Source: a virus. From it: a DNA stretch of 20,553 nt. This document shows positions 3,005 through 19,152 of this stretch, piece by piece. The DNA lies in the IMG/VR virus record IMGVR_UViG_3300022198_001368, positions 1-20,553 of that record; one strand, written 5' to 3'. How positions within the stretch are numbered: the stretch's first letter is position 1; each line of letters opens with the position of its first letter. The notes under the pieces are model-generated. The model was not told the origin of the DNA, searched no databases, and worked only from the letters and a program-made list of their open reading frames with translations. A program made the translations under genes and the position numbers.

Positions 3005-3082
3005 CTACCCGTAGCTCAACTGGACAGTAGCAAGTGCCTTCTAAGCACTAGGTTAGAGGTTCGAGTCCTCTCGGGTAGGCCA
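3005..3082 (+). tRNA. tRNA-Arg (anticodon UCU)
   Basis: Cloverleaf: acceptor 3005-3011 pairs with 3072-3078 (seven Watson-Crick pairs), discriminator G3079, CCA encoded at 3080-3082. The D stem is 3014-3017 with 3028-3031 (one C-U mismatch), and the D loop carries GG. The anticodon stem 3033-3037/3045-3049 is perfect, with loop CTTCTAA and anticodon TCT at 3040-3042. The T stem AGAGG/CCTCT is perfect, with loop TTCGAGT. It reads AGA (and possibly AGG) codons, which are frequent in this phage and scarce in GC-rich hosts. It abuts the next tRNA with no spacer. Confidence 0.95.
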
Positions 3083-3157
3083 GCCCAGTTAGTTAAATGG
3101 AGATAACAGTTGATTTGTAATCATCAATTGCGGGTTCGATTCCTGCACTGGGCACCA
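3083..3157 (+). tRNA. tRNA-Thr (anticodon UGU)
   Basis: Cloverleaf: acceptor GCCCAGT (3083-3089) pairs fully with 3147-3153, discriminator A3154, CCA encoded at 3155-3157. The D stem is GTTA/TAAC. The anticodon loop is TTTGTAA with anticodon TGT at 3116-3118; the anticodon stem has one U-U mismatch. The T stem is GCGGG/CCTGC with one G-U pair and loop TTCGATT. The variable loop is four bases. It reads ACA codons. The gene begins at the base after the CCA of tRNA-Arg, so the pair must be separated by processing exactly at the CCA end. Its 3' half overlaps the best reading frame start of the RlpA-like gene. Confidence 0.93.
3099..3112 (+). promoter_or_regulatory. Shine-Dalgarno and TTG start lying inside tRNA-Thr
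   Basis: GGAG (3099-3102) falls in the D arm of tRNA-Thr, seven bases before TTG (3110-3112) in its anticodon stem. The 13 bases ATGGAGATAACAG here (3097-3109) are identical to those before the GTG start of the exonuclease (1763-1775), which argues that the spacing can work. Whether ribosomes use it is not shown by sequence. Confidence 0.4.
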
Positions 3158-3469: not shown

Positions 3470-3657
3470 CAGACTATCAGACAGACTACAAGATTATGTA
3501 TGAAGAACTCCGTGCCTTGGTCAGACTGTATTTTGAAATCAAAAACGATGATGGTACAGTATATGATCATGATGATTGGATTGAGGCTCTTGAAAATACA
3601 GAGATAGATCTTTGTTTGCTTGTTGGTCTTATCAGTGAAGAGGACCTTGATGACTAA
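3466..3657 (+). CDS. small acidic protein of unknown function
   Basis: The product is 63 residues, strongly acidic in its C-terminal half ([17 protein letters not shown]), and largely helical in appearance. I recognise no family. GAGG (3456-3459) lies six bases before the ATG, and the start overlaps the RlpA-like stop as ATGA, so it is a real coupled gene rather than a chance frame. The end overlaps the phosphoesterase start by eight bases. Its place between a cell-wall protein and a phosphoesterase gives no firm clue to function. Confidence 0.7.
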
Positions 3658-4402
3658 AACCCATCTGGTAATCCCAGATCCACATGCCAGTCCTGATGAG
3701 GATCTGTCCCGGTTTACCCTTCTTGGTAAACTGATTGCCAGTGTCAAGCCTGATACAGTAGTCTGTATTGGTGACTGGGCTGACATGCCTAGCCTGTGTT
3801 CCTATGACCGTGGGACCAAGGGCTTTGAGGGCAGGAGATACAGGAAGGATATCGAAGCATCATGTCTTGCACAGGAGATGATGTTCCGCCCTATTCGTGA
3901 GGCCAAGAAAAAGCTCCCACGGTTCATCATGACAACAGGGAACCATGACTATGCCCGTATTGAAAAGGCTATCCAGAAAGATGCAGTCTTGGATGGAACC
4001 ATCTCAGTTGAAGATCTACAATACAAGGACTTTGGGTGGGAGGCTTACCCTTTTCTGGAACCTGTTGAAGTGGACGGTGTATATTACGCGCACTATTTCC
4101 CAACGGGGGTTATGGGTAGAGCTACAAGCGGTGAACATCAGGCGTACACCCTCCTTACAAAACAATTTGTATCTGCCACGCAGGGTCACACTCACACTAG
4201 AGATTTCTGCGAGAGGACTGGACCTGATGGACGAAGACTTCTTGGACTTGTCGTCGGATGTTATGTAGACAGGGTGCATGAGTATGCAGGACAGGCCAAT
4301 AAGATGTGGTGGTCTGGAGTTGTGGTAAAGAGAGGGGTTAGTCAAGGGATGTATGATCATGAGTGGATCAGTCTGGACAGGATCAAAGATGAGTTTAAGT
4401 AG
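3650..4402 (+). CDS. calcineurin-like metallophosphoesterase
   Basis: The product is 250 residues with all the metal-binding motifs of the superfamily in order: D10-x-H12, G41-D42-x2-D45, G97-N98-H99-D100, H148 and G179-H180-T-H182. It should be a two-metal phosphoesterase acting on a phosphomonoester, phosphodiester or nucleotide in the cytoplasm; there is no signal peptide. The substrate is unknown; phage relatives are variously proposed to act on DNA, RNA ends or nucleotides. The ATG at 3650 has GAGGA (3640-3644) five bases upstream and overlaps the previous gene by eight bases. An in-frame TTG at 3620 would add ten residues, but it lies inside the upstream gene and the first motif starts so soon after 3650 that these are not needed. 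Confidence 0.9.
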   Translation: MTKTHLVIPDPHASPDEDLSRFTLLGKLIASVKPDTVVCIGDWADMPSLCSYDRGTKGFEGRRYRKDIEASCLAQEMMFRPIREAKKKLPRFIMTTGNHDYARIEKAIQKDAVLDGTISVEDLQYKDFGWEAYPFLEPVEVDGVYYAHYFPTGVMGRATSGEHQAYTLLTKQFVSATQGHTHTRDFCERTGPDGRRLLGLVVGCYVDRVHEYAGQANKMWWSGVVVKRGVSQGMYDHEWISLDRIKDEFK

Positions 4403-6617: not shown

Positions 6618-6856
6618 TGACAGAAGAGCCAAAGGTATTCAAGCTTGTCACAAAAGAAAAACCCCCGGAAGACCCGGGGGTTACAGCAAATGATTTGCTA
6701 AAAGAAGGGATTGATAACTACGATAACATCATCCTGATTGGCTGGCACGGAGATTCATTCAAGATCTCTTGGTCTGAAGACTTTACTCCAGAGGAAGTTT
6801 ATGTTCTTCTTGAAGTAGCCAAGGACAGGTTGATGAACAGGATGTACGTATTCTGA
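6617..6856 (+). CDS. small protein of unknown function, last gene of the rightward block
   Basis: The product is 79 residues. After a Lys/Glu/Pro-rich start, residues 25-79 read as a compact alpha/beta fold (DNYDNIILIGWHGDSFKISWS, then a helix EEVYVLLEVAKDRLMNRM). This general pattern occurs in small proteins of unknown role in other marine phages; no function can be given. The ATG shares its A with the reductase stop (TAATG), so translation is probably coupled. Codons 12-23 also encode, on the other strand, a strong hairpin with a U-tract, so this coding stretch must serve two purposes. It ends six bases from the converging gene. Confidence 0.75.
   Translation: MTEEPKVFKLVTKEKPPEDPGVTANDLLKEGIDNYDNIILIGWHGDSFKISWSEDFTPEEVYVLLEVAKDRLMNRMYVF
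6652..6682 (-). terminator. intrinsic terminator of the leftward late block, inside the opposing gene
   Basis: On the minus strand a 9-bp perfect stem (AACCCCCGG with CCGGGGGTT; 6682-6674 and 6668-6660) with loop GTCTT is followed by TTTCTTTT (including stem bases, TTTTTCTTTT). This is the classic form of a Rho-independent terminator for leftward transcription. It lies about 180 bases past the last leftward stop codon and within the coding region of the 79-residue rightward gene. Read rightward, the same hairpin has no U-tract after it. Confidence 0.8.
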
Positions 6857-6862
6857 CGTAGA

Positions 6863-7294
6863 TTACTTCTTACCCCTCAAGAGGCTCAAGAGATTGGGCC
6901 TTTTAATTTTTCTACCGCCTCTCTTCTGCATCTCAGTAGGGGCAGCACCAACCCAGTTACCTTTGAATGCAGGGGCCTTGGGAGGTCTTGCCGTAGACTT
7001 GCGCTTCTCTACCTTCTTCTTAGAGGCATTAGGATTAACAGGCTTTAGCTTAGGTTTGGGAATCTTTGCACCGCGAACAGGGTTTCCCTTACCCTCACGA
7101 TTAACGCGCTGCGGTTGGTCTCCCTTACCCTCACGATTAACGCGCTGCTGTTGATTGCCTTTTTCTTTTCTATTGACAATTTGCAGTTGGTTAACTTTTT
7201 CTGTTCTGTTTGGATACTGTTCAAGATCAACCTTGGTATTAGGATCACGATAGCGAATGCTACGATTAGACCCGGGGTATATAAAGTTTGCCAT
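6863..7294 (-). CDS. basic low-complexity protein with three 12-residue repeats
   Basis: The product is 143 residues, very rich in Lys, Arg, Asn, Pro and Gln. Residues 35-70 are three tandem 12-residue repeats (NQLQIVNRKEKG, NQQQRVNREGKG, DQPQRVNREGKG), followed by a KPKLKP/KKKVEKRK basic stretch and a KRGGRKIKRP tail. It looks disordered and nucleic-acid-binding, but no family is recognised. The start has a purine-rich AAGGAAAG upstream and lies one base after the stop of the preceding 31-codon gene. It is the last gene of the late block, so it is probably made late and may be a minor virion or DNA-packaging accessory protein; that is a guess. The rightward terminator lies within its last codons. 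Confidence 0.75.
   Translation of the reverse strand: MANFIYPGSNRSIRYRDPNTKVDLEQYPNRTEKVNQLQIVNRKEKGNQQQRVNREGKGDQPQRVNREGKGNPVRGAKIPKPKLKPVNPNASKKKVEKRKSTARPPKAPAFKGNWVGAAPTEMQKRGGRKIKRPNLLSLLRGKK
6882..6911 (+). terminator. intrinsic terminator of the rightward block, inside the opposing gene
   Basis: The stem AGGCTCAA (6882-6889) pairs with TTGGGCCT (6894-6901), eight pairs including one G-U. It is closed by a GAGA (GNRA) tetraloop and followed by TTTTAATTTTT (6901-6911). It starts 26 bases after the stop of the last rightward gene. It lies within the 3' coding end of the leftward 143-residue gene. On the minus strand the hairpin lacks a following U-tract, so it should act only rightward. 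Confidence 0.85.
7085..7192 (-). repeat. 36-base tandem repeat, three copies
   Basis: Two copies (7085-7120 and 7121-7156) share their first 28 bases exactly. The third (7157-7192) is degenerate but aligns in register. Each encodes one 12-residue unit of the basic protein. The first two copies look recent in origin and may vary in number between relatives. Confidence 0.9.
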
Positions 7295-7295
7295 G

Positions 7296-7391
7296 TTACT
7301 TTCCTTTCTTCTTCATAGCCTTTTTCATGGGCTTCTTCATTTCATTCATCTTCTTCATAGGCTTCTTATAGATCTGACCCTTACCCGGCAT
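7296..7391 (-). CDS. 31-residue Lys/Met-rich micro-protein
   Basis: The ORF begins MPGKGQIYKK, continues with repeated M-K-K and P-M-K-K units and ends KKKGK. A full AAGGAG lies seven bases before the ATG, and the stop is one base before the next start, so it fits the spacing of the operon. Nearly half of the residues are lysine. No family is recognised. It would bind polyanions such as DNA or RNA, by composition only. Confidence 0.65.
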   Translation of the reverse strand: MPGKGQIYKKPMKKMNEMKKPMKKAMKKKGK

Positions 7392-7432
7392 AACTGAACT
7401 CCTTCTTAAATCACCAGTGTTAGTTGTTTTCA

Positions 7433-7657
7433 TCATCTGTACTTAGCTACTTTCTTGGCGATTGCCTTTGGCTGGCGTACATGTTGAGTTTTCCCCTTTC
7501 TTTTAGCTGCTGTAGTAGCAGCATACTCTGAAGGTGTAAGAGCTTTTATTGCTTTTTCTGGTAGATATCTTTCTCCAGTTTTTGAAGAAGGTTTACCAGA
7601 CTTTGTTCTCCACTTTTGTTTTGTCCAATTAACAAGATCTTTCTGGGGCTTCTTCAC
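7433..7657 (-). CDS. small basic conserved viral protein (possibly DUF5872)
   Basis: The product is 74 residues with the pattern W-x-K-Q-K-W-R-T-K-S-G-K-P-S, then TGERYLPEKAI, then EYAATTAAKRKGK and a basic end. I associate this with a small family of unknown function found in phages and other DNA viruses, which I believe is DUF5872, from memory. It starts with GTG at 7657, which overlaps the stop of the upstream gene as GTGA; GGAGGT lies about eight bases upstream. It is very basic throughout. The function is not known. Confidence 0.8.
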   Translation of the reverse strand: MKKPQKDLVNWTKQKWRTKSGKPSSKTGERYLPEKAIKALTPSEYAATTAAKRKGKTQHVRQPKAIAKKVAKYR

Positions 7658-7839
7658 TTGTAACCACCTCCAGCTTTCTTGTATTCCTTGGCAAGAAGTT
7701 GAGCCTTACGGGCTGACCATTGTCCAGCCTTTGTACCCATTATAGCAGATCCTTTGATCTTGTTAAAGAGTCTTTTACGAAGTTCTGGTTTGGTATAGTT
7801 ACCAGCTTCGTTTACTTTGCTCTTAACTTTTTTTACCAT
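7654..7839 (-). CDS. small basic protein conserved in marine phages
   Basis: The product is 61 residues. VNEAGNYTKPELRKRLFNKIK and GQWSARKAQLLAKEYKKAGGGY are segments I recognise as typical of a short protein seen in many cyanophages and other marine phages, with no known role. It is strongly basic. The start overlaps the upstream stop by seven bases, with AAGG four bases before the ATG. The end overlaps the GTG of the next gene. An A7 run follows the start codon region, but no alternative frame of interest follows. Confidence 0.8.
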   Translation of the reverse strand: MVKKVKSKVNEAGNYTKPELRKRLFNKIKGSAIMGTKAGQWSARKAQLLAKEYKKAGGGYK

Positions 7840-8105
7840 TTGACCTTATCCGCCCAGTAAGCCGCAGACATCTTACCCTTGGAGATGTTCTTGGCATGTC
7901 TGGCCTTAAAGGATTCCCTACGCTTACGATAGGACTCAGACTCACCAGCTTTCTTAGGAGAACCAGACACTCCCTGCTGACCAAACCTGATAAGCTTTAC
8001 CTTTGAACCTTCCTTTGCCAGTACAGCATGAGACTTGCTGGCATTGGGTGTACGCTTGGGTTTGTTATACCCTGCAAACTTCTCACCTCTGTATTCAATT
8101 GCCAT
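7833..8105 (-). CDS. basic protein conserved in marine phages; intact copy of a duplicated 5' end
   Basis: The product is 90 residues. The IRFGQQGVSGSPKKAGESE, YRKRRESFKARHAKNI and MSAAYWADKVKW segments are typical of a conserved phage protein of unknown function. I place the start at the ATG at 8105, because GGAG lies six bases upstream and the truncated paralogue at 8358-8444 begins at the same residue. The frame is open four codons further upstream. The first 26 codons are duplicated there with one amino acid change (Glu4 to Lys). Highly basic, like its neighbours. Confidence 0.8.
   Translation of the reverse strand: MAIEYRGEKFAGYNKPKRTPNASKSHAVLAKEGSKVKLIRFGQQGVSGSPKKAGESESYRKRRESFKARHAKNISKGKMSAAYWADKVKW
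8028..8105 (-). repeat. 78-base repeat, copy A (within the 90-residue gene)
   Basis: Matches 8367-8444 in 74 of 78 bases. The four differences are all transitions and give three silent changes and one Glu-to-Lys change. Confidence 0.95.
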
Positions 8106-8160
8106 CATTAACTCCAATAATTATTACCTGATCCGGGTAAACCAACAAGAAAATAAACAA

Positions 8161-8346
8161 TCATTTCTTACCCTTTGGTTTCTTGCCTTTAGGTTTCCAC
8201 TTACCCAGATTATTATCTATCTCTTCTGTCCCTGAAAGTTTACCCTTCTTCTTCATGGCATAGAAGACAGACTCAGCTTTATCTTCGTCTTTGTAGTACT
8301 TCTTCATTGCACGAAGTACCTTTTTACCTTTACTTGTCAGCGCCAT
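8161..8346 (-). CDS. small lysine-rich conserved phage protein
   Basis: The product is 61 residues. The pattern MALTSKGKKVLRAMKKYY...KAESVFYAMKKKGKLSG resembles a short protein family common in phage late regions, sometimes found as a domain of larger proteins. Its function is unknown. The C-terminus is a K/P/G repeat (PKGKKPKGKK). AGGGG lies eight bases before the ATG. The gene lies between the intact and truncated copies of the duplicated sequence, so it is enclosed by direct repeats in the same orientation. Confidence 0.75.
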   Translation of the reverse strand: MALTSKGKKVLRAMKKYYKDEDKAESVFYAMKKKGKLSGTEEIDNNLGKWKPKGKKPKGKK

Positions 8347-8357
8347 TATTGATACCC

Positions 8358-8444
8358 CTATACTTTATGAGACTTGCTGGCATTGGGTGTACGTTTGGGT
8401 TTGTTATACCCTGCAAACTTTTCACCTCTATATTTAATTGCCAT
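8358..8444 (-). CDS. 28-residue truncated paralogue of the 90-residue basic protein
   Basis: The ORF reads MAIKYRGEKFAGYNKPKRTP, then six shared residues, then K-V-stop. It equals the first 26 residues of the 90-residue protein except for Glu4 to Lys. AAGGAG lies six bases before the ATG and overlaps the stop of the upstream murein hydrolase gene, so it should be well translated. It may be a duplication remnant or a retained micro-protein; three of the four base differences from the parent are silent, which mildly favours retained coding function. Confidence 0.6.
   Translation of the reverse strand: MAIKYRGEKFAGYNKPKRTPNASKSHKV
8367..8444 (-). repeat. 78-base repeat, copy B (the 28-codon ORF)
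   Basis: Direct repeat of 8028-8105. The pair is separated by about 260 bases that hold the 61-residue gene. It could support recombination that deletes that gene. Confidence 0.95.
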
Positions 8445-8454
8445 GATTTACTCC

Positions 8455-9513
8455 TTAATAAGTCCAAGTAGAAGCCATTCCCGGCTTGAGTTTATCTTTG
8501 GTCCATACATCAAAGTGTATACCAGCCTCTCCCATGTATGTACCAACTGATCCAAAATCGTTTTGAATCCAGTAATCTCTGAGCTTATCCAAAGTTTTTC
8601 TGTCCTTGACTTGTTTACCCTCAGGATTATAAATCTTTACATCAGCAGCAAGACCAAGACCATCCTTGTCTACATCATGTCTTTCTGTGCCAGTCTTTTT
8701 TTCACCTTCCTGACCACCAGAGTAAACTTCTACAGTGTACCCTGTACCCAAGACAGTCGAAACGGCCATATCAAGCTTGGCCTCAAGCTCAAATGTAACA
8801 GGTTTGTTTCTGATAACCTCTTGGTTTGTGTACTTGATTGTGGTAAAACCGACAGGCTTGAGGACTGTGGTAGACCTAGACCGAATATTATTACTGACTG
8901 TTTTTTCAAAGTTTTTGTCAATTACAATACCTGTCCATGTTTTCTGAAGAGCCTCTCTCAGAAACTGGGTATTACCAGCAGCAAGGTCTGCCTCAAGATC
9001 CCTGCCTTTGGTATTCTGTTTATATCTTTCCTTGGCCAGATAAAACGCAGCCTTATCCTGATTCTGAGGACTAAAGTCTCCAAGATCAGGATAGTTTTTC
9101 TTGAGGTACTGCCATGTTTCATTTGTAATCTGGTACTTACCAGCGGCTGTGCTAGGTCCAGCCTTTGTCACAACTCCTACAATGTTAGGATGCTCCAGAC
9201 CTTCAAACTTCTGACCACCTACAATGATATTGTAATCCCCACCTGTACCTTCTGCACTGGCAATGGCATCAAGAAAGCCTTGGGCTTGTGGAGACAACCC
9301 AGATCCATCCACAGCCGGGGTAATCACAGGCTCTCCAATCAAATCCTTTGTCTCAGGATCTACCTTTGGTTTTTCTTTCTTGGTAAAGGTATCAAGCAAA
9401 GCCTTGACAGAAGTACCAAGATTGTAGATATCCTGAGGATTTACTGTAGCAGCAGGGGCCTGTACAGTAGCATCCACATTTACATCAGATACTTCAGGTT
9501 TTAGCAAAGCCAT
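8455..9513 (-). CDS. two-domain murein hydrolase: GH104-type lysozyme plus M15-like peptidase
   Basis: The product is 352 residues. Residues about 76-195 match the lambda R / GH104 lysozyme pattern: FLDAIASAE88GT with the catalytic Glu, YNIIVGGQKF, EHPN, AAGKYQI, TW and DFSPQNQDKAA. Residues about 243-345 look like a D,D-peptidase of the M15 type: YSGG, then H279, then G-L-A-A-D291, then G-I-H333-F-D335, giving a His/Asp/His zinc site. The protein would thus cut both glycan and peptide bonds. There is no signal peptide. It follows the internal virion genes, so it may be a virion-borne hydrolase used at DNA entry, the endolysin, or both. The first 10 residues (MALLKPEVSD) resemble those of the preceding 620-residue virion protein. 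GAGGG precedes the ATG. The GH104 call is firm; the peptidase call is likely. Confidence 0.85.
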   Translation of the reverse strand: MALLKPEVSDVNVDATVQAPAATVNPQDIYNLGTSVKALLDTFTKKEKPKVDPETKDLIGEPVITPAVDGSGLSPQAQGFLDAIASAEGTGGDYNIIVGGQKFEGLEHPNIVGVVTKAGPSTAAGKYQITNETWQYLKKNYPDLGDFSPQNQDKAAFYLAKERYKQNTKGRDLEADLAAGNTQFLREALQKTWTGIVIDKNFEKTVSNNIRSRSTTVLKPVGFTTIKYTNQEVIRNKPVTFELEAKLDMAVSTVLGTGYTVEVYSGGQEGEKKTGTERHDVDKDGLGLAADVKIYNPEGKQVKDRKTLDKLRDYWIQNDFGSVGTYMGEAGIHFDVWTKDKLKPGMASTWTY

Positions 9514-9516
9514 TTA

Positions 9517-11379
9517 TTAACCCTCAGTCTCAAGGTTCTGGCGAATAATCGTAAGAGCATCCTTACCCTGCTTGACATTATCAGGGATCTTACGGCTTGT
9601 CCTTGCCAGAACATTCAAGGATTCGATTGTATCAAGGATAATCTTTTGGTTATTACCCTGAAGAAGTGTGACATAGTTATCCAAGATTCTTCTAGGATTA
9701 AGTTCCGTAGGAGCCTGTTCAATTCTAACCTTTCCTGTACGGCCTCTTGTCTCATACCTATAAGCACCCATAGCTTTCTTAAGATTATTGTCAAGCCTCA
9801 TGGCAACAGGATTTACCACAAGTTCAAGGTTACCAAATTCATCAACTTCAATCTTGAAAGGTTGGTATTCAGTCTGTTTTATTTCTTCAAACTGATTACG
9901 CAAAGTAGTGGTAAGAACCTGTGCAGATCTTTTTGAGTATGTGTTAATCACGTTAAACATACCCATGCCCTTGTCAGGCATGGTCTTTGCCATGTTTTCT
10001 GCAATCATAAATGTCTTGTCAGACAAAAGCTTCTTGATGTTAGTCGGCTTAATAGACTGACCACCAGTATCAAACTCAGGAAGAGAAACCATAAACATGG
10101 AAGTAAGAGAATTATAGGTAGCTTCCATAAACTCAGGGCTTTCACCTTCAAGTTTATACTGTTGTGTAGTATCCAAACTATCCTTTACAACAGCAGACCA
10201 TGCTGGCTTTGCATTGAAAGTAGTAATCAATGCCTCGCGGCTAAACACAGAATCGTATCTATTAGCTACTTCTGAAGCAGAGTCTGTCGGAGTACCCGGA
10301 GATGTGTCAGGACCTATTGCTTGAGGTGCTGTACCATTTACACTGAAAGGTCCCACCTTGTACTGAGCAATAGCAAGAACCTCTTCCAACACTTCTGGAC
10401 TTTTATTCAAAATATAAGTAGCCATAGTTGGGTCCATCTGTCCAGTAGCAATAAGGCGTGTAGCCAAATTACCAGTATTAGCAATTACCTTTGCCTGATC
10501 TTCTTTTGTTTTGTTGTTTAGCTCTCTATTCCACTGAGTAGAATAGTTTTCAAGATTAGAAATCAAAGCATCAAATTGAGTCATAAAAGTCTCAGGCTTA
10601 ACTGTTGTGGGATCAATACCACTCTTGTTGATATCATTGGTAATCTTAGAAAGTAGTGTTGCTCTTTGTGTTTTAACAGCATCAATCAAAAACTGTGTAG
10701 GAGTAGCTCCACTTTCTTCTGCTGACTGAAGAATAAGACTAATCTTCTTTTCATCAAACATGCTTTGATATACGCTGTCTACATCTTGCTGTAGTAAAGG
10801 TCTAAGTTCTAATTCAAACCTTTCTTTGTTGTCTTCAAATCTTTTCTTTCTTACATCAATTTCATATTCCAACTGCTTCTGTTTGGTGTAAGCAGCAAAG
10901 ATCATATTCTGCTGAGTCTCAACATCACCAGAAGCCTGAATCATTGCTTCAGCAACAGCCAGTTTACCAGCTTCACTCTTCTGCGCCCACTCTAACATAT
11001 TACTTTTTTGTATATCCTCAAGCGACATACCTGTGGCAGGGTAAATTTCACCGGATACTTCACCAAAGAACTTGTTAAGGTCATCCACATACACAGGATA
11101 CTCACGATAAGCATTCTGCTGTAGTGCCTTAAAGGCCACAGCCTTTCTTGTAGGATCTTCGATCTGATCAATCTTCATCATGTTGGCAGAGACAGTCCTC
11201 AAAGCCTCCATCTTTCTTTCAGCTTCTGTAGGACCCTTTACTTCCTTTTCCTCCAAAGATTCTCTGAAGATCTGTCCAACATTAGAAATAAAACCAGAGT
11301 AATCCATACTAGGAGGAGTATAGGCAGTGACATTACTACCACCCATGTCTCTTACTTCTGGTTTAAAAAGTTCAGCCAT
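9517..11379 (-). CDS. internal virion protein (T7 gp15-like position)
   Basis: The product is 620 residues, mostly charged helix with Gln/Glu/Lys-rich stretches (for example EYEIDVRKKRFEDNKERFEL around residue 172-191) and no catalytic motif. By size and by position among internal virion genes it is probably one of the ejected core proteins that form the trans-envelope DNA channel in T7-like phages. That is inferred from context. AGGAG lies eight bases before the ATG, overlapping the end of the upstream gene. The start MAELFKPEVRD is echoed in the downstream hydrolase. T7 gp15 is 747 residues; here the gene order relative to the largest protein is reversed. Confidence 0.75.
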   Translation of the reverse strand: MAELFKPEVRDMGGSNVTAYTPPSMDYSGFISNVGQIFRESLEEKEVKGPTEAERKMEALRTVSANMMKIDQIEDPTRKAVAFKALQQNAYREYPVYVDDLNKFFGEVSGEIYPATGMSLEDIQKSNMLEWAQKSEAGKLAVAEAMIQASGDVETQQNMIFAAYTKQKQLEYEIDVRKKRFEDNKERFELELRPLLQQDVDSVYQSMFDEKKISLILQSAEESGATPTQFLIDAVKTQRATLLSKITNDINKSGIDPTTVKPETFMTQFDALISNLENYSTQWNRELNNKTKEDQAKVIANTGNLATRLIATGQMDPTMATYILNKSPEVLEEVLAIAQYKVGPFSVNGTAPQAIGPDTSPGTPTDSASEVANRYDSVFSREALITTFNAKPAWSAVVKDSLDTTQQYKLEGESPEFMEATYNSLTSMFMVSLPEFDTGGQSIKPTNIKKLLSDKTFMIAENMAKTMPDKGMGMFNVINTYSKRSAQVLTTTLRNQFEEIKQTEYQPFKIEVDEFGNLELVVNPVAMRLDNNLKKAMGAYRYETRGRTGKVRIEQAPTELNPRRILDNYVTLLQGNNQKIILDTIESLNVLARTSRKIPDNVKQGKDALTIIRQNLETEG

Positions 11380-11384
11380 ACGGT

Positions 11385-14300
11385 TTACTCCTGTTCATTT
11401 AGCTTCTGATACTGTCTTGACAGACCTTGCTTGACAGTCAATGCGTCTTGTTCAATTGCAATCTCACCAAGAGACTTCCAGCTTTCACGACTACGCGTGA
11501 TAACATCTTTCTGCTGACTGAAGTTTAGCGGGGCCAAAAGAGACATAATTTCATCTCTGATATCTTCAGCAGCCTTGTAGTCATTCTCTTGCATGTATCT
11601 GCCCTTCAGTCTGGTAAGCTCTCTCACCCTGTCTGTAACCTTGGCAATCATGTCCTTTTCAGCAAACAAGGCTTGCTTAAGATCGTAGTACATCTCAACC
11701 TCTTGGAAAGGAATACCCAATGTATTCCAAAGAGCATTCCAAGGATTCATACCCTCGGCCAGTACCTGACCTTTCTTGTTTACAAACTCTCCTGTCAACA
11801 TCAGGTAATAAGCCTGAGTTACTTTGTTCCAAGTAGAAACATTTCTTGCTACCTTGTTAAGGTCATACTGCTGAAGAGTTATGTCTGATGTAAAGATAGA
11901 AGAAAAAAGACCAAAAGCACCCATTCCAGAATCAAACGCAATAGATCCGGCAGGACCACCAATAAGCTCTGCAAAGTTTTTATCCATTACATCATCATAA
12001 AGTTGATTAAGACCATCACCTGTACCCAGACGGCCACCAACAGCAGTATCCACACCAAGGATATTAGACAGAATACCATCAAGAAGGCCATACCTTAAAG
12101 TTGTATACAAGTCTTTATTGATACCTTCTGATGTCTGATCGACAAAGGCATTAACACCCCAACTTGCAAACGGAACACCCGCAGCACCAAAGAAAACAAG
12201 CTGACTAAGACCAAGCCTTGCTCTTTCCTTGCCAGTAAGGTTTCTGCCAAAGAAGATATTCTCCATCAGCTTTGCCTGATAGCCAAGCCACTGTGTAGGC
12301 AGAGACAAGAAACCCTGTTGCCAAGAAGCAGCAGAAGCCCTTGTCATATTCAGAGTAAGAGTGTCTGCTCTCTTGGTAATGAACTCATCCATGATCCTGT
12401 ACCCTGACTCTGTGGTAATATCCAGAGTAGGATAAGCTCTTCTAAACTCACGATAACCAACATTCGTAGCCATCAGTCGGCCAACTCTGTCACCTTCGTT
12501 GAAGAACATACGTCCAGTTTCCCTGATGTTTCTGATCACACCACGGGTCATGTCATAAGTAGAGTTAATCTCGGAGATATTCTGATTGACCTGAAATCGT
12601 CCAGACTTGTGCATATAGTCCACGACTTCAAGAAAGTCCTTTTCAGGCATACCAATAAAGGTACTGGATCTTTTGTACAAAGCTTTCAGAACCTCAGGGT
12701 TCCTGTTAATCATGGCGATACGCATTGGAAGATACGCAGCAGCAGCTTTAAGTCCATGCACCGGGGCAATGGCCATGATAGACAAGGCAGCAGAACCTTG
12801 GACAAGGTACTGGTCTGGATTAAACATACCCATTTTAAGGTCAAAAGCAAAAGATCTCAGAGCCACATCAGGTCTGAAGCTCATCCTGTCAATAACATCT
12901 ACCCTGCCTTTGGTCTTTTCAAAGATAAACTCACCAAAGCCCTGCATCCTTCTTTCCCAAGCTTGGGCAAACTCGTTTGTCTCATTAAGCCTGTTCATGA
13001 TGACTCTTCTTTCTGTTCTGAAGAGTTCACCAGTCTTGCTATTTGCAAACTTGGCTTGTCTAAGCTGCTGGATAAAAGGCAGATTCTTGATCTGGTCTGC
13101 GTTTGTTATGGCATTGTTAGCCTTGGCACCCTTCAGGAAACCTTCAATGGCTTTGTAAGAGTACTCCCTTTCAGCCATGTAGTTAATACCCTTGGCAAAG
13201 TCTCTTTCCACAGATACAAGAGGATCAATATGCTTAAACTTGCCACTTCCATAACCATAAATAACCTCGTTCTCCAGCCTACCCTTGGCATAGAGTTCTT
13301 CGTATGTGGTAAACTTACCAAGTCTGTAATTTTCAAACTGACCAACACCTACAGCAGGAAGCTCTGCGTCCTTGGTAACAATATCTACATCATTCTCAAT
13401 ACCAGACTTTTCCAGATACTTCTCAAACATCCCGACATCTTCAATGTTAGGATTGAATCCGTTGTTAGCCTTGATAAGATCATCAGCCGCAGACTTTGAG
13501 ATAGTCCCTGCCTTGAAATCAGACAAAGCTTTCATCGAAGACTTGATGTCTTTGGCAGCATCGGCAAGCTCTTTGGCTGTTCTACCAACAAACACAATAT
13601 TGGGTGTAAGGTTAAGGACATTACCCGACAGATCCGTTCTGATCCTCTTGGATGCAAGATAACCGTGTATGTTTCCTGTATCTCTATAACCACCAGCAAT
13701 ACGAGGTACAACATCAGACAAAGTAACAGGTCTTGAAGACTTCAGAGAGCCTGTGGCATACAGAACCTTCTTGCCATCAATAACCGGAGCATTGTCTACA
13801 TCCACAATTTGATACAGGTTATTCTGCTTCTTTGTCTTCTTAAGTTCAAACAAAGTTTTTCTGTCAATAACCTTACCAGTGCTAAGATCAAGTACAAAGT
13901 TTTGAGGATAATCTTTACCAGCAGGAAGGTTACCAACATCATCAAGTCTTTTCATACGGTAATAGTTGATACCATCACCAGTACCCATGAACTGACCATA
14001 TCGCTCACCAGATGTTCTCTTCAAAACCTTGTCAGCATCAAGCCATTTGGCTGCTTCAGAAAGCTTATAGGTAGAGACATAAGCATCTTGAACTTCTTGT
14101 GTGGCTTCTCTCCCTGTCTGTCTACGATAGATATCCTTGAATGTTCCAAGATCGTACCAGTCACTGTCTTCTACCTTGATCTTGGAAATAACCTGATCAA
14201 GACCTCTTTTGTCAGCCCTAGAAACTTTCTTCAAAAGGTTGTTATGCTGAGTAACAATTTCAGCTTCGATGTAACCAATCTGCTGAAGACCTCTTTTCAA

Positions 14301-15752
14301 AACAGTGTTAAGTCTGTCTGAAGAAGTAATCTCAGGAGAGGCAAGAAAATCAAACAAAGAAGACCTAAGCTCTGAAACTTGAGTAGGACTTGCCAGTCCC
14401 TTCATGCCAAGGTTTCTTTCAAAGGTAACAACATATCCCTCAGGCTTGTCACCCTTGGCATTGATACCATACGGTTCTACCTTGCCACCAAAAGGCTTGG
14501 CAAACTTTTGAGCATTGGCCCAGTCCTTGAAAGGAACACCATCTTCTCTGCCAAGGGTGACCTTCACAGCAAAGTTATCCAGACCCAAGTCTTTTTCCTG
14601 AATGTCCAAGACATGAAACTTGGTTTTCTTCTCAAGATAGTTCTTGTATCTTGTCTTTGCAGCCTGAAGCATTTCAGGAGAATAAATACCACGATAAGCC
14701 GTGGCAATCTTCTCAAAGTAATCGTTCGTGACCTCATTGGCTAAGGTAGGCTTAAGGGTTGCTCCAAGACCATTAGACCCCACAGCAGAACTGCTAGGGG
14801 CTGTCTGAATGGCAAGGTTAACAGAAGTCTGTCCAGTACTTAGGGCATTGTCTACAACCTGATTAGCCGCTGCCTTGCCTCCTGTGGCCTCTGCTACCTG
14901 TGCAGCATCCGTAGCCAAGGCAAGCTTTGCTGTTGTACCTGATGTACTTGCAACACCTTTGCCAAGACCAAGGACCTTACCAACAGGGATAAAACCAGCC
15001 ACATCAACAGCCAGCCAAAGTCCTTCATTCTCTGATGTACCCATGCTGGCAATGGTATTGTACCTAGACCAGTACAACAAGGAGTTATCACCAAAAACAC
15101 CAAGATCCTTGGCTTGTTTGGCAAACTTTCTGGCCAGCATTCTTTTCTTGTTCAGATCAGGCTCAAGAAAGATTTCAAGATACTGTTCTCTGCCAAGCTG
15201 AGACTTACCTTTCCAGTCTCCTACACTTGTTTCTGTAACACCAAAGAAGTTTTCAGGTACACCTACTGTTGCTTCTCTGGCAATCATGCCAAGAAAAGAA
15301 CCGACATACCCAAGCACTGATTCATCTGGGGCAGCAGCCTTGAACTCTTCAGAAAGGATAGCCATAGTCAAGGCTGTCTGATCCACATCAGGATTGAATA
15401 CATCCACAACGATGTTTTCTATGACATCCTTGCTTTCTTGTGCGCTCTGAACATACTGTGTGTTACGTTGGTATGTCTCAAGAGTTTCCTTGAAAGTCTC
15501 AGGAGAAAAGCTTTCTGCATAAGCTCTTTCAACCAGATCAGGTTGTTCCTTTTCCTTGAAGATATCATAGTACTTGCCTTCCTCAACAGCAATCAAAGCC
15601 TCATCAACAGGAATATTATTATGCTGTGCATACCTCTCTGCAAGAGAAAGCTTGTACTTCTTGCTCTTTTCAATCTCTTGGGTAATCTCTTCCTCACTGG
15701 GGAAAAGACTTTCTACTACCTCAAAAGATTGATCTTCAGGAAAAAGAGACAT
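11385..15752 (-). CDS. large internal virion protein (T7 gp16-like position)
   Basis: The product is 1455 residues, the largest in the window, comparable to T7 gp16 (1318). No lysozyme or transglycosylase motif is visible, unlike gp16, and that activity appears to reside in the separate 352-residue protein. Hydrophobic or Gly/Ala-rich segments occur near residues 245-268 (GLWLAVDVAGFIPVGKVLGL), 970-1010, 1190 and 1275, consistent with a protein that enters the host envelope on DNA ejection. The rest is long helix and mixed sequence. The start shares its A with the stop of the gp14-like gene (TAATG), with GAGG eight bases upstream. Identity is by size, position and composition. Confidence 0.8.
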   Translation of the reverse strand: MSLFPEDQSFEVVESLFPSEEEITQEIEKSKKYKLSLAERYAQHNNIPVDEALIAVEEGKYYDIFKEKEQPDLVERAYAESFSPETFKETLETYQRNTQYVQSAQESKDVIENIVVDVFNPDVDQTALTMAILSEEFKAAAPDESVLGYVGSFLGMIAREATVGVPENFFGVTETSVGDWKGKSQLGREQYLEIFLEPDLNKKRMLARKFAKQAKDLGVFGDNSLLYWSRYNTIASMGTSENEGLWLAVDVAGFIPVGKVLGLGKGVASTSGTTAKLALATDAAQVAEATGGKAAANQVVDNALSTGQTSVNLAIQTAPSSSAVGSNGLGATLKPTLANEVTNDYFEKIATAYRGIYSPEMLQAAKTRYKNYLEKKTKFHVLDIQEKDLGLDNFAVKVTLGREDGVPFKDWANAQKFAKPFGGKVEPYGINAKGDKPEGYVVTFERNLGMKGLASPTQVSELRSSLFDFLASPEITSSDRLNTVLKRGLQQIGYIEAEIVTQHNNLLKKVSRADKRGLDQVISKIKVEDSDWYDLGTFKDIYRRQTGREATQEVQDAYVSTYKLSEAAKWLDADKVLKRTSGERYGQFMGTGDGINYYRMKRLDDVGNLPAGKDYPQNFVLDLSTGKVIDRKTLFELKKTKKQNNLYQIVDVDNAPVIDGKKVLYATGSLKSSRPVTLSDVVPRIAGGYRDTGNIHGYLASKRIRTDLSGNVLNLTPNIVFVGRTAKELADAAKDIKSSMKALSDFKAGTISKSAADDLIKANNGFNPNIEDVGMFEKYLEKSGIENDVDIVTKDAELPAVGVGQFENYRLGKFTTYEELYAKGRLENEVIYGYGSGKFKHIDPLVSVERDFAKGINYMAEREYSYKAIEGFLKGAKANNAITNADQIKNLPFIQQLRQAKFANSKTGELFRTERRVIMNRLNETNEFAQAWERRMQGFGEFIFEKTKGRVDVIDRMSFRPDVALRSFAFDLKMGMFNPDQYLVQGSAALSIMAIAPVHGLKAAAAYLPMRIAMINRNPEVLKALYKRSSTFIGMPEKDFLEVVDYMHKSGRFQVNQNISEINSTYDMTRGVIRNIRETGRMFFNEGDRVGRLMATNVGYREFRRAYPTLDITTESGYRIMDEFITKRADTLTLNMTRASAASWQQGFLSLPTQWLGYQAKLMENIFFGRNLTGKERARLGLSQLVFFGAAGVPFASWGVNAFVDQTSEGINKDLYTTLRYGLLDGILSNILGVDTAVGGRLGTGDGLNQLYDDVMDKNFAELIGGPAGSIAFDSGMGAFGLFSSIFTSDITLQQYDLNKVARNVSTWNKVTQAYYLMLTGEFVNKKGQVLAEGMNPWNALWNTLGIPFQEVEMYYDLKQALFAEKDMIAKVTDRVRELTRLKGRYMQENDYKAAEDIRDEIMSLLAPLNFSQQKDVITRSRESWKSLGEIAIEQDALTVKQGLSRQYQKLNEQE

Positions 15753-16243
15753 TAAACATACCTCATACCAAACCCGCTAGACTGTATCGGGTTAGCCATA
15801 CGGCCAAGTGTCTGCATACCAGTATTGTAAAGACCAGAGCCAAGAGTGCCAAGCTCTGGTCCAATAGAAGCAATACCCTGTGCAATACCAGCCTGAGTCT
15901 GATACTGAGCAGCCTGATTAAGGAATCCCTGCTGTCTTTCAACAGATCTTCTGGTCATCCCTTGGAATCCAAGAGTAGACAAGACCTGATTCTGAAGACC
16001 GCTCAGACCCCCGGTAAGTCCTGTACTTCCAAGACCACCAATCTGTGAAGCCACATTTACTGTTTGCCCTGAGGCAATAGCCTGTTGTCTCAGAAGCTGT
16101 CTACGTTCCCTCTCATCAGCAGCCCTCTGCATCCGGCGCTGTTCCCTCATAGCCCTCTGCTGTTCCTGCATAGCCTGTCTCTGAGAGTACATCCCAAACA
16201 GACTTGCACCAATACCAATCACCGCTCCTGCTGCCTGTGCCAT
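15752..16243 (-). CDS. gp14-like internal virion protein
   Basis: The product is 163 residues: an N-terminal hydrophobic Ala/Gly segment (residues 3-18, QAAGAVIGIGASLFGM), a Gln/Arg-rich coiled coil (about 19-55), then a Gly/Gln/Leu-rich half. This layout is that of T7 gp14-type proteins, which are ejected first and insert in the outer membrane. It sits just before the large internal virion protein, as expected. AGGAG lies nine bases before the ATG. The family is judged from layout and context, not strict motifs. Confidence 0.75.
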   Translation of the reverse strand: MAQAAGAVIGIGASLFGMYSQRQAMQEQQRAMREQRRMQRAADERERRQLLRQQAIASGQTVNVASQIGGLGSTGLTGGLSGLQNQVLSTLGFQGMTRRSVERQQGFLNQAAQYQTQAGIAQGIASIGPELGTLGSGLYNTGMQTLGRMANPIQSSGFGMRYV

Positions 16244-16262
16244 TAGGATTCACTCCTGTTCA

Positions 16263-16745
16263 TTAAAGATCCTTCCAATAAATTACTTCTTTTTCAGAGT
16301 ATCCAAGTCTCTTGTACAATTTGCCTAAGTTGTTTGGACTAAGGTTTGTGAATGTGGATACAGAAAGTATGTCTGCTTTCTTGTATTTACCCCATGCTTC
16401 AAATGCCTTCAGCATCTCAAGTCCGTACTTCCTGTACTCCTCTTCTACATAGATAGACATACAGTATGCCATCATTGAATAGTGAAAGTAATGCGGGGTA
16501 AGGTAGCCAAAGATGTATCCTCTTACCTTTCCACAAATGACCAAGACAATACCTGTTGCCTTGTCATTCCTGAGGGCTTCCCTGAACAGGGCTTCTATCC
16601 GGTCTTCCTCAAACTCTTTGTCAGGTACAGCAGCCTTGACAGGAACTCTGGATAGTCTTACGATATCTTCGTAGTCTTCTTCTTTGATGTACCTTATACT
16701 GACGTCAGTATTTCTTCCTACGTCAGTATCTTGGATTTGTCCCAC
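16263..16745 (-). CDS. GNAT-fold acetyltransferase-like protein (T7 gp13 position)
   Basis: The product is 160 residues. The GNAT fold is suggested by an N-terminal IRYIKEEDYEDIVRLS, a central MSIYVEEEYRKYGLEMLKAFEAW covering motif A, and a C-terminal LGKLYKRLGYSEKEVIYWK. The acetyl-CoA loop is degenerate: R105-x-x-G108-x-E110 instead of R/Q-x-x-G-x-G/A, so activity is doubtful. T7 gp13, encoded between gp12 and gp14, belongs to a family of the same clan, and this gene has exactly that position. It therefore probably aids virion assembly. The start is GTG at 16745, overlapping the gp12 gene by 23 bases, with GGGA about eight bases upstream; no ATG is available near the N-terminus. Confidence 0.75.
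   Translation of the reverse strand: MGQIQDTDVGRNTDVSIRYIKEEDYEDIVRLSRVPVKAAVPDKEFEEDRIEALFREALRNDKATGIVLVICGKVRGYIFGYLTPHYFHYSMMAYCMSIYVEEEYRKYGLEMLKAFEAWGKYKKADILSVSTFTNLSPNNLGKLYKRLGYSEKEVIYWKDL
16696..16711. repeat. 16-base perfect palindrome with a nearby second half-site
   Basis: ATACTGACGTCAGTAT is a perfect inverted repeat. Its right half, ACGTCAGTAT (16702-16711), recurs at 16720-16729, 18 bases further on. It lies in the first codons of the GNAT-like gene and touches the end of the gp12-like gene. It encodes two Thr-Asp-Val units, so coding repetition may explain part of it. It could also be an operator or a nuclease target. Confidence 0.7.
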
Positions 16746-19152
16746 TTACAATTTCCCATCCAATAAGATAAAAATCCTTGCCAGTCTCAGATTCAAAACG
16801 CATACGCATTACCCTGCCTTTGCCTCTGACTTTTGTCCTGCAAACAATTGTATCATATGGATAAGTAAATGTCAAATCGTTTGGGTTAACCGTAGGATAG
16901 TTTATTATTCTGTATATCTGACTAGGGGTACTCCACCTTGAGTTATCCCCTGACAGATCCCACTTGGTTGTAAGAATACATCCAGAAGGATAGTCAGCCT
17001 CGTACCCACCTCCAGACACCACAAATTTTTCTTCTGTTCTTTTCAGGTATGAGGTGATGTAGGGGGTGTTCTTCTTGATCGTGGCAGAACCCATAAAGTC
17101 ATATCCTGTCTCGGCATACGACGAATAATCAGCAGACTCCCAGTCAAGGAAGTCTCTGTTTCTGAACTCTGCAAATGTTATCTTGTCATCATCTGTCTTG
17201 ACAATAAACTTGATTTCTGTCTGAATAGACGAAGAAGTTGTAATTGTCTGAATAACAGTATCTGAACTTGAGTCTATAACTTGATCCGCTCCTGCCAGTA
17301 CATTAAAATCAACTGGTGCAGAACCAAGACCAGACAGATAAAAAGACTCAAGCATATAGACACTAGACCCTGAAAGATCAGATACCTCCCATGGGAAGTA
17401 TGCCTGAAGGCTCATGTCCAAGATAAGTATCTTGTTTTTCTTATGGTCTGTTGTTTCGTCTTCTGTTGGGTATATCCAGTAAATTCTGTTATTCAACCTG
17501 TCGTATACTGCTGATGATTCTTTTTTTGTATCATTACTTATACTGTCATAAAAAGTCTTGATAGGTTCAGAGATATTCTGTACTGAAGGTTTATCAAGTT
17601 CTGTTGTGATGGCATAGATACCGGACACACCCCAATAAATCGGAGTACCGGAAACATCCACCAGTGTCTTCTTATCCACAATACCAAAGTTTGACAGTCT
17701 GCTGACATAGTACTCTGTGGCTTTGAAGACCTGATCCACACCACCAATAATCCATACGCCATTACTGGCCAAGGCATACAGGACTGAGCCTGTGCTATAC
17801 AAGGCTTGAATGTTACTGGCATCGGGAATGACAAGATAACCACCGTCAGAGTCTACAAGACCCGGAGTATCTTCTGCGGTAGGATCAGCTTTCTGATAAC
17901 AGTTACCAAAGTCCTGCTTGTCTTCAATCACTCTGGAAAAGAAAACCTTACCACCGTTCTTTGCAGAGTCAAGACCAGCATACCATACCCGTCCAGCATA
18001 AGCTTCTGTGGAATTAAATCGGGCTTCTTCTACAATGGTAGTAAGACCTGAGATAGAACCCGGGGCAGCACCTGTGGTAGCTCCACTTCTGTTTTGATTG
18101 AAGAAGTCAAGGATATACCGGCCATTAGGAGCAAGAGTAGAGCCTTGCTTTACGTTGATAAACTGAGAATAATCAAAATAGTTTGAAGAAGAAATACGCC
18201 CAACCCACCAAGGTTTATTTCTTGGAGGATAATCATTTCTATTCAATCCGTTGGCATTTGATCTCCAGTAAGTATACAGATTATTCCGGTTACCAAAAGT
18301 ACCTGTCTCAGCCCAACCCATGTTGTACAGGTCATACTGATAGTTCCGGGTAATTTTTGTCGGAAACTTTTCTGTATTGGTATCCCAGTAAGACTCGTAC
18401 ACAAAACCTGTGGCTGATGTTGTGCCAAGGTCAGATCCAGTCAAAGAGTATGTAAATCTTGTTGATGTTGGAATACCTGTGACTGCAAATGTACCGTTAA
18501 ACTCACCAAGAGAACAGTCAATCTGGACTGTATCTCCTGTTGTTAGTTCGTGAGAAGTATTGGTTGTAATGGAAACAACATTACTTGTCCTAGACACAGA
18601 CACAATGTTTGAAGACATACCAAGATATTCAAAGTCTCTGATCTTGATAGTGATAGGTTCAACAGAAATTGAATCTGAAGAAGAAAAATACTGCACAACA
18701 ATAGGGTTTATTGCGGCAGAAACAATGACAAGGTAACCTGTGATAGAAGAACAGCTAATGGGTGTTTCACTTACAGAGAATGAATTACTAGCAGAAAAAT
18801 CACCAAGGTCAATGCTAAAAGGTCTTTCAGAAGCGGAGACAGGATTGGTACTCTTATCATAAAAGTATATCTTGTCATTTACCTGAAGGACAAGAAACTC
18901 CTTACCACCAATACCAGACACATTCTGCCATGTCTCTCTGTGTACATAGTCTCCAGAGTTTACGGTAAAGGAACTCTTCTGGTAGTTTTCTTCAAACTGG
19001 ATACCCCTACGCCTCTGTCTGGCCCCGTTCTTCAACAAGTCACAGTTAAGTTCATCTGAAGAAGCACCCTCAGGGAACGTCATCACCGTTGCTTCAGTGA
19101 TAAGTCCCTTGTTGAAGGTGTTAACAGGCTTTAGATTAACTTGCTGTGGCAA
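16723..19152 (-). CDS. tail tubular protein B (T7 gp12-like)
   Basis: The product is 809 residues, close to T7 gp12 (794). It forms the tail nozzle. The N-terminal signature NTFNKGLITEA, FPEGASSDELNCDL and GARQRRRGI is that of the family; the rest is beta-rich with repeated Ser/Thr/Tyr stretches, as for a nozzle propeller. The only start that keeps the conserved N-terminus is TTG at 19152, with AAGGA about eight bases upstream and a 17-base overlap with the upstream gene. The next ATG (Met23) would remove the signature. The gp11-like gene lies two genes upstream, as in T7-like phages with a small gene in between. Confidence 0.92.
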   Translation of the reverse strand: MPQQVNLKPVNTFNKGLITEATVMTFPEGASSDELNCDLLKNGARQRRRGIQFEENYQKSSFTVNSGDYVHRETWQNVSGIGGKEFLVLQVNDKIYFYDKSTNPVSASERPFSIDLGDFSASNSFSVSETPISCSSITGYLVIVSAAINPIVVQYFSSSDSISVEPITIKIRDFEYLGMSSNIVSVSRTSNVVSITTNTSHELTTGDTVQIDCSLGEFNGTFAVTGIPTSTRFTYSLTGSDLGTTSATGFVYESYWDTNTEKFPTKITRNYQYDLYNMGWAETGTFGNRNNLYTYWRSNANGLNRNDYPPRNKPWWVGRISSSNYFDYSQFINVKQGSTLAPNGRYILDFFNQNRSGATTGAAPGSISGLTTIVEEARFNSTEAYAGRVWYAGLDSAKNGGKVFFSRVIEDKQDFGNCYQKADPTAEDTPGLVDSDGGYLVIPDASNIQALYSTGSVLYALASNGVWIIGGVDQVFKATEYYVSRLSNFGIVDKKTLVDVSGTPIYWGVSGIYAITTELDKPSVQNISEPIKTFYDSISNDTKKESSAVYDRLNNRIYWIYPTEDETTDHKKNKILILDMSLQAYFPWEVSDLSGSSVYMLESFYLSGLGSAPVDFNVLAGADQVIDSSSDTVIQTITTSSSIQTEIKFIVKTDDDKITFAEFRNRDFLDWESADYSSYAETGYDFMGSATIKKNTPYITSYLKRTEEKFVVSGGGYEADYPSGCILTTKWDLSGDNSRWSTPSQIYRIINYPTVNPNDLTFTYPYDTIVCRTKVRGKGRVMRMRFESETGKDFYLIGWEIVSGTNPRY

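Follow-up and report, generated by a model that had tools for sequence, protein, structure and literature searches.

A 28-codon open reading frame in a marine podovirus of the SIO1/cobavirus group is, with a probability of about 0.7 by our estimate, a by-product of recombination at a site with turnover of small genes. The window, meaning the whole stretch of 20,553 bases that was analysed, is a virus record covering a fragment of the genome of a podovirus, a marine virus that infects bacteria. At the far end of its virion arm, amid small lysine-rich genes, lies a direct repeat of 88 nt (8028-8115 and 8367-8454, both on the minus strand); no other repeat family in the window is as large. Its two copies are 93% identical and 339 nt apart from start to start. 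Copy B (8028-8115) consists of GGAG, six bases, ATG and codons 1-26 of the gene for P90, a conserved 90-aa protein (7833-8105, minus strand). Copy A (8367-8454) likewise contains GGAG, six bases, ATG and codons 1-26, and is followed by two codons and a TAG. This gives the 28-codon frame (8358-8444, minus strand) with the translation MAIKYRGEKFAGYNKPKRTPNASKSHKV. The same virus has another IMG/VR record, 3300007538_000310, with the identical arrangement at the repeat. It differs from the window by 16 mismatches in 14,810 compared bases, none of which lies at window positions 7,620-16,857.

The window's phage is related to SIO1 and the cobaviruses. Its tail tube protein has 43-44% identity to the homologues of Lentibacter phage ICBM1 and Roseobacter phage SIO1, and the alignments cover 93% (ICBM1) and 89% (SIO1) of the window protein. 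The window also encodes a class II RNR, and its genes form two opposed arms, so that three marks of the group are present. Direct terminal repeats and genomes of about 40 kb are further marks of the group, while the window is a fragment of 20.5 kb. In the consulted part of the cobavirus report, two opposed gene arms and a cobalamin-type RNR are described for the cobaviruses (PMC6775973), and together with the related tail tube protein these are common to the cobaviruses, the SIO1-like podoviruses and the window.

The initial annotation had described the first 26 codons of P90 as repeated upstream at about 95% identity with a fresh stop, the copies being in direct orientation around a 61-residue gene and separated by four transitions, three of them silent. 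This description was confirmed. In the coding part 74 of 78 bases match, the short frame ends in TAG, and P61a, a lysine-rich gene of 61 aa (8346-8161, minus strand) that has homologues in L114-L119 and L191 at the corresponding position, sits between the copies. Given as copy A/copy B, the differences fall on base 10 (codon 4, A/G, AAA/GAA, K/E), base 15 (codon 5, T/C, TAT/TAC, silent), base 24 (codon 8, A/G, GAA/GAG, silent) and base 51 (codon 17, A/G, AAA/AAG, silent). At codons 4 and 17 it is the short copy that has changed, the base of copy B being found in 13 of 14 relatives. At codon 5 the full copy probably changed (base of copy A in 12 of 14), and at codon 8 the 14 relatives are mixed, 8 against 6.

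The repeat takes in 10 nt 5' of the start codon, and therefore the translation-start region was duplicated as well. Copy A abuts the TAA stop (8457-8455) of P352, a 352-aa gene with a lysozyme/endolysin-like part (8455-9513, minus strand; phrog_90 endolysin, E=9e-19). The short frame had been credited with a better ribosome binding site than its parent. It does read AAGGAG against GGAG, but its pairing with the 16S tail is predicted to be only slightly stronger, at −6.6 kcal/mol compared to −5.9 kcal/mol for copy B. Moreover, the AA is the end of the P352 stop codon and the repeat proper begins at GGAG, so the difference is an effect of the junction. With these good start signals the short frame is probably translated. 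It is still open, has four changes against the full copy, is identical in the two records, and keeps all the invariant residues of the N-terminal arm. The open frame, the silent changes and the kept residues speak against a passenger, but they are also expected from recency alone. No RNA element was seen: an Rfam scan of 6800-9600 gave no RNA family and the fold of the short-frame region was ordinary (z 0.04). Promoter- or terminator-like sites in 7700-9600 were no commoner than in shuffles.

P90 matches phrog_7595 over its full length, residues 2-90 aligning to positions 6-96 of the 96-position profile (E=2.9e-38). Weaker profile matches were obtained to phrog_9979 (E=3e-9) and to the minor-head-protein family phrog_220; in terms of the 35 aligned members, phrog_7595 matched 35, phrog_9979 30 and phrog_220 29. 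The 28-codon frame matches phrog_7595 at E=2.4e-5 over profile positions 6-33 of 96 only and by this match is a fragment of a phrog_7595 protein, lacking the remainder. To gp125 of ICP1, annotated as a capsid protease, P90 has 36.7% identity by tblastn (E=2e-6). The P90-like domain is the C-terminal part of gp125, and its gene adjoins the scaffold gene. The relation of P90 to ICP1 gp125 and to the phrog_220 minor head proteins is thus that of a domain: ICP1 has it within a larger protein, the window has a free 90-aa protein, and the short copy corresponds to the N-terminal arm only. The minor head and coat protein genes of the cyanophage KBS-S-2A enclose a P90-type gene, together with other small genes. 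From these relationships P90 is probably head-associated.

A structure of P90 was predicted from a 35-row alignment with a mean pLDDT of 83. The model has an N-terminal arm up to residue 25 with two short strands, after which come two further strands (26-32 and 35-41) and two helices. The duplication reaches as far as the predicted folded core and stops there. In the arm region N14, P16, K17, T19, K24 and V28 are invariant in 38 rows, and all six are present in the short product. A Foldseek search of the PDB gave no usable match (best E 0.66), nor did the sequence profile of P90 against the PDB (best E 0.25). In the Foldseek search of the viral library four matches had E <= 0.001, all of them unnamed, followed by an XkdF-type protein (E 0.004) and ICP1 ORF125 (E 0.0055). 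By this model the short product is without the P90 core; most likely it has no selected role.

Relatives of the clade were found by searching with the 1455-aa, 620-aa and 352-aa proteins of the virion arm, the last search covering the best 80 of 97 loci. P352 is followed directly by P90 in three relatives of two lineages, L095 and L112, which are close to each other, and L096. The order P352-P61a-P90 was found in L114, L115, L116, L117, L118 and L191, the P352 homologue of L191 being shorter and diverged, and the order P352-P61a-kinase-P90 in L119. In L113 the sequence ends inside P61a. The seven loci with P61a and then P90 represent five or six lineages, L114 and L115 being near-identical, and the repeat was found at this place in none of the seven. 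The stop of P352 and the start of P61a are one or two bases apart in L114-L119. Among the best 80 of 153 P61a loci, four from more distant phages (L249-L252) have P61a and P90 about 0.9 kb apart, and these four have no second P90 copy. In a midpoint-rooted P352 tree, with long branches for L119 and L096, the window is sister to L095/L112 (100/99), and the window, L095/L112 and L096 together are set apart from the P61a-bearing rows (97/97). A loss of P61a in the P352-P90 set with a regain in the window requires as many events as two losses. The P352 alignment found no relative in bacterial and archaeal genome contigs. Directly behind P90, L095 as the nearest relative has a PhoH-type ATPase gene (16531-17235, Pfam PF02562, E=5e-68) where the window has other small genes, a further sign of turnover.

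Between P61a and P90 the window contains an 18-codon frame (8108-8164, minus strand) that overlaps the P61a stop and reads MIVYFLVGLPGSGNNYWS, which resembles a degenerate P-loop. The P-loop motif is GxxxxGK[ST]; the frame has GLPGSGNN and then a stop, and is not a complete P-loop. In L119 an intact kinase gene beginning MSTVYFLVGLPGSGKSTWA lies between P61a and P90 and belongs to Pfam AAA_33 (E=2.3e-18, 67.3 bits against a curated cut-off of 27). The window frame matches the start of this kinase gene at 32 of 33 bases, whereas the next-best place in L119 for the same 33 bases gives 21, and none of 5000 shuffles aligned as well. Its last part matches the 3' end of the kinase gene and the start of P90 at 28 of 34 bases. 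The window has thus lost the middle of the kinase gene, and a scar is left. The L119 kinase has 27.7% GC in a locus of 42.6%, and this AT-richness suggests that the gene arrived recently. A scan with the kinase gave L119's own contig as the sole match, and that the gene is seen in one relative only speaks against our explanation.

Both copies of the repeat start with ATGGCAATT, each with GGAG six bases before the start. Among 70 P90 homologues with alignments beginning within the first three residues, this start occurs in L119 alone, where the kinase frame ends ...ATGGCAATTGA and overlaps the first bases of P90. Since ATGGCAATT is rare and common to L119, copy A probably descends from a kinase-flanked P90; the match of two codons could also be convergent. 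A derivation of copy A from a plain old P352-P90 junction of the L095/L096 type is disfavoured by the same start. Donor tracing along P90, using sites where L095 and L112 agree and differ from L117 and L191, gave 7 matches of one type and 3 of the other within the first 78 bases; over the remainder the counts were 9 and 8. It was dropped because the excess comes mainly from the very first bases, a stretch in which the L095/L112 start is shifted.

On the other side, 3' of codon 26, copy A runs AAAGTATAGGGGTATCAATAATG into P61a. Together with one preceding base this sequence (8344-8367, minus strand) aligns without gaps to the P352/P61a boundary of L117 with 19 of 24 bases identical, which none of 2000 shuffles achieved, and the boundary is the best match on both strands of the 9.8-kb locus. 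We regard it as a probable remnant of a P352 3' end, and copy A was probably joined to the tail of a P352 gene, in which TGG turned into the TAG stop. Against this stands that the joint is significant in one of the ten tails tested: with the nine others, including the window's own, 543 to 1976 of 2000 shuffles were as good. L112 has an unrelated 18/24 match to the joint sequence.

The repeat, the scar, the alternative gene orders and the rare start in common with L119 can be read directly from the DNA; from them we infer the nature of the joints and their possible order as follows. The ancestral order in the window lineage would have been P61a, an AT-rich P-loop kinase gene and P90, as in L119. 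The start of the kinase-flanked P90, with its ribosome-binding site, would then have been placed behind the P352 stop, and codon 26 of P90 joined to the sequence just 5' of P61a. Two non-homologous joints would be required, one from the P352 stop to GGAG and one from P90 codon 26 to the sequence before P61a. They may have arisen by an unequal exchange of a P352-P90 genome with one of the order P352-P61a-kinase-P90, by a tandem duplication followed by a deletion, or by a template switch with two jumps. In a separate event, the middle of the kinase gene would have been deleted with the 18-codon scar left behind. No intermediate genome was seen among the relatives found.

Second copies of the P90 start were looked for in other phages. 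Among the best 80 of at least 596 P90 loci, none had a second N-terminal copy of P90 and none had P61a at E 0.01. For a search of 5' copies within limited flanks, 245 of 269 loci were taken; the 24 left out were 10 of the same virus, 13 from contigs already included and L108, which has no P90 match. A P90 homologue was present in 100 of the 245, and none of these 100 had a second 5' copy. As a positive control, the repeat of the second record was recovered with E=5e-34. Seven loci gave matches of 15-25 nt outside the 5' part, and L021 a weak protein match (27% over 22 residues, E 0.016). Searches of 15 other whole records gave exactly one P90 match in 10 and none in 5, which are possibly fragments. 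L051 shows, 360 nt downstream of its P90 homologue's end, an echo of the 20 C-terminal residues (3632-3691, 65% identity, E=3e-6), outside any frame of at least 30 aa. This is a 3' counterpart of the partial copy in the window.

An assembly or sequencing artefact is barely conceivable. Only two records are available and they are nearly identical, but the copies differ from each other and the second record, distinct at 16 bases, has the same structure, which makes an assembly artefact unlikely. The repeats might instead be the normal borders of a mobile cassette carrying P61a, which would move by exchange between them, in line with the earlier suggestion that the repeat reflects gain or loss of the gene. 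That suggestion holds in so far as P61a varies in presence (absent in L095, L112 and L096, present in L114-L119 and L191) and an exchange between the copies would drop P61a and restore one intact 90-codon frame. In Kayvirus 812, moreover, a 2-kb insertion/deletion is bordered by the direct repeat GGAGGTTAATTWATGAA in the part of the report consulted (PMC6445280). But the repeat as the usual route finds no support, since it flanks P61a in none of the seven relatives found that have P61a and then P90. A cassette bounded by the repeats was therefore rejected as very improbable. The same result, P61a without the repeat in all seven, came from the comparison of relatives that the initial annotation had proposed, and is one half of what it had named as evidence against its own reading.

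The remaining alternatives give the short frame a function. It was proposed that the 28-residue product competes with P90 by binding a partner of the arm and modulating it. The arm is conserved in the family and N14, P16, K17, T19, K24 and V28 are all kept, yet their retention would follow from recency, the copy stops short of the predicted core, and such a copy is found in none of the 100 other loci. A competitor or regulator peptide is thus unsupported and decidedly unlikely. A translational leader, kept for feeding ribosomes to P61a in place of a coupling to P352, is an unlikely reading as well. Its start signal is good, P61a starts 11 nt behind its stop, and in L114-L119 the stop of P352 is as near to the start of P61a as described above; against it, P61a's own start signal is of similar strength (−6.3 kcal/mol) and no second case was found. 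It is similarly doubtful that the frame is a translated chimeric micro-gene, composed of the P90 arm and two codons of another tail, which links translation to P61a or modulates P90 in the course of assembly. If true, it would be a very young gene with its parents and joints all visible. We favour the recombination by-product, with the short copy probably a passenger. The lack of a second 5' copy in the 100 other loci, the end of the copy at the predicted core and the place of the window among P352-P90 genomes in the P352 tree also speak for it.

The case is clear but ordinary, and the mechanism is of a kind already documented, although no report of the repeat locus was found in those parts of the literature that were searched. 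Rearrangement between direct repeats is documented for Kayvirus 812, where mutants of this lytic phage, like the window, have gained or lost genes, or duplicated a gene, with direct repeats at the borders (excerpts of PMC6445280). By our own reading of these excerpts, one of the Kayvirus repeats looks like a ribosome-binding site with a start codon. The Kayvirus repeats border the variable segment, whereas in the window's relatives the enclosed gene stands without a repeat in all seven (PMC6445280, same excerpts). For the T4-related phages illegitimate exchange is discussed as a source of mosaics in the sections consulted (PMC2993671), and non-homologous joints add or replace small genes there as in the window. 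Unlike the T4-relative cases in those sections, the joint in the window made a second copy of a neighbouring gene's start, and a further scar, that of a deleted kinase, was left. The locus is a readable example of how small-gene turnover in lytic phages leaves truncated frames with good start signals. Annotation can mistake such frames for genes, and further changes can use them as repeats. A kinase gene, caught after it was lost, has left its scar within the same few hundred bases. The point of interest is whether freshly made, well-started micro-ORFs do anything.

Other features of the window were noted. It has two tRNA genes, Arg TCT (3005-3082) and Thr TGT (3083-3157), whereas none were found in ICBM1 and ICBM2 according to the consulted part of PMC6775973. 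Just before them lies a GIY-YIG endonuclease gene of the SegE kind (2596-2988, Pfam PF19835, E=2.3e-32). Unlike the features common to the cobavirus/SIO1 group, a 620-aa protein of the virion arm (9517-11379) matches nothing in 50,697 phage records at E 1e-5, nothing in PHROGs and nothing above the cut-off in Pfam; relatives in IMG/VR do exist. A 36-nt tandem duplication (7081-7152, 94%) within a 143-aa gene (6863-7294) is the second recent-looking one in the same small-gene region. Homologues of P61a, of the other 61-aa gene (7654-7839) and of a 74-aa gene (7433-7657) co-occur in other phages (L203, L235, L243-L245, L248, L253 and L256), so that the small lysine-rich genes look like a recurring set.
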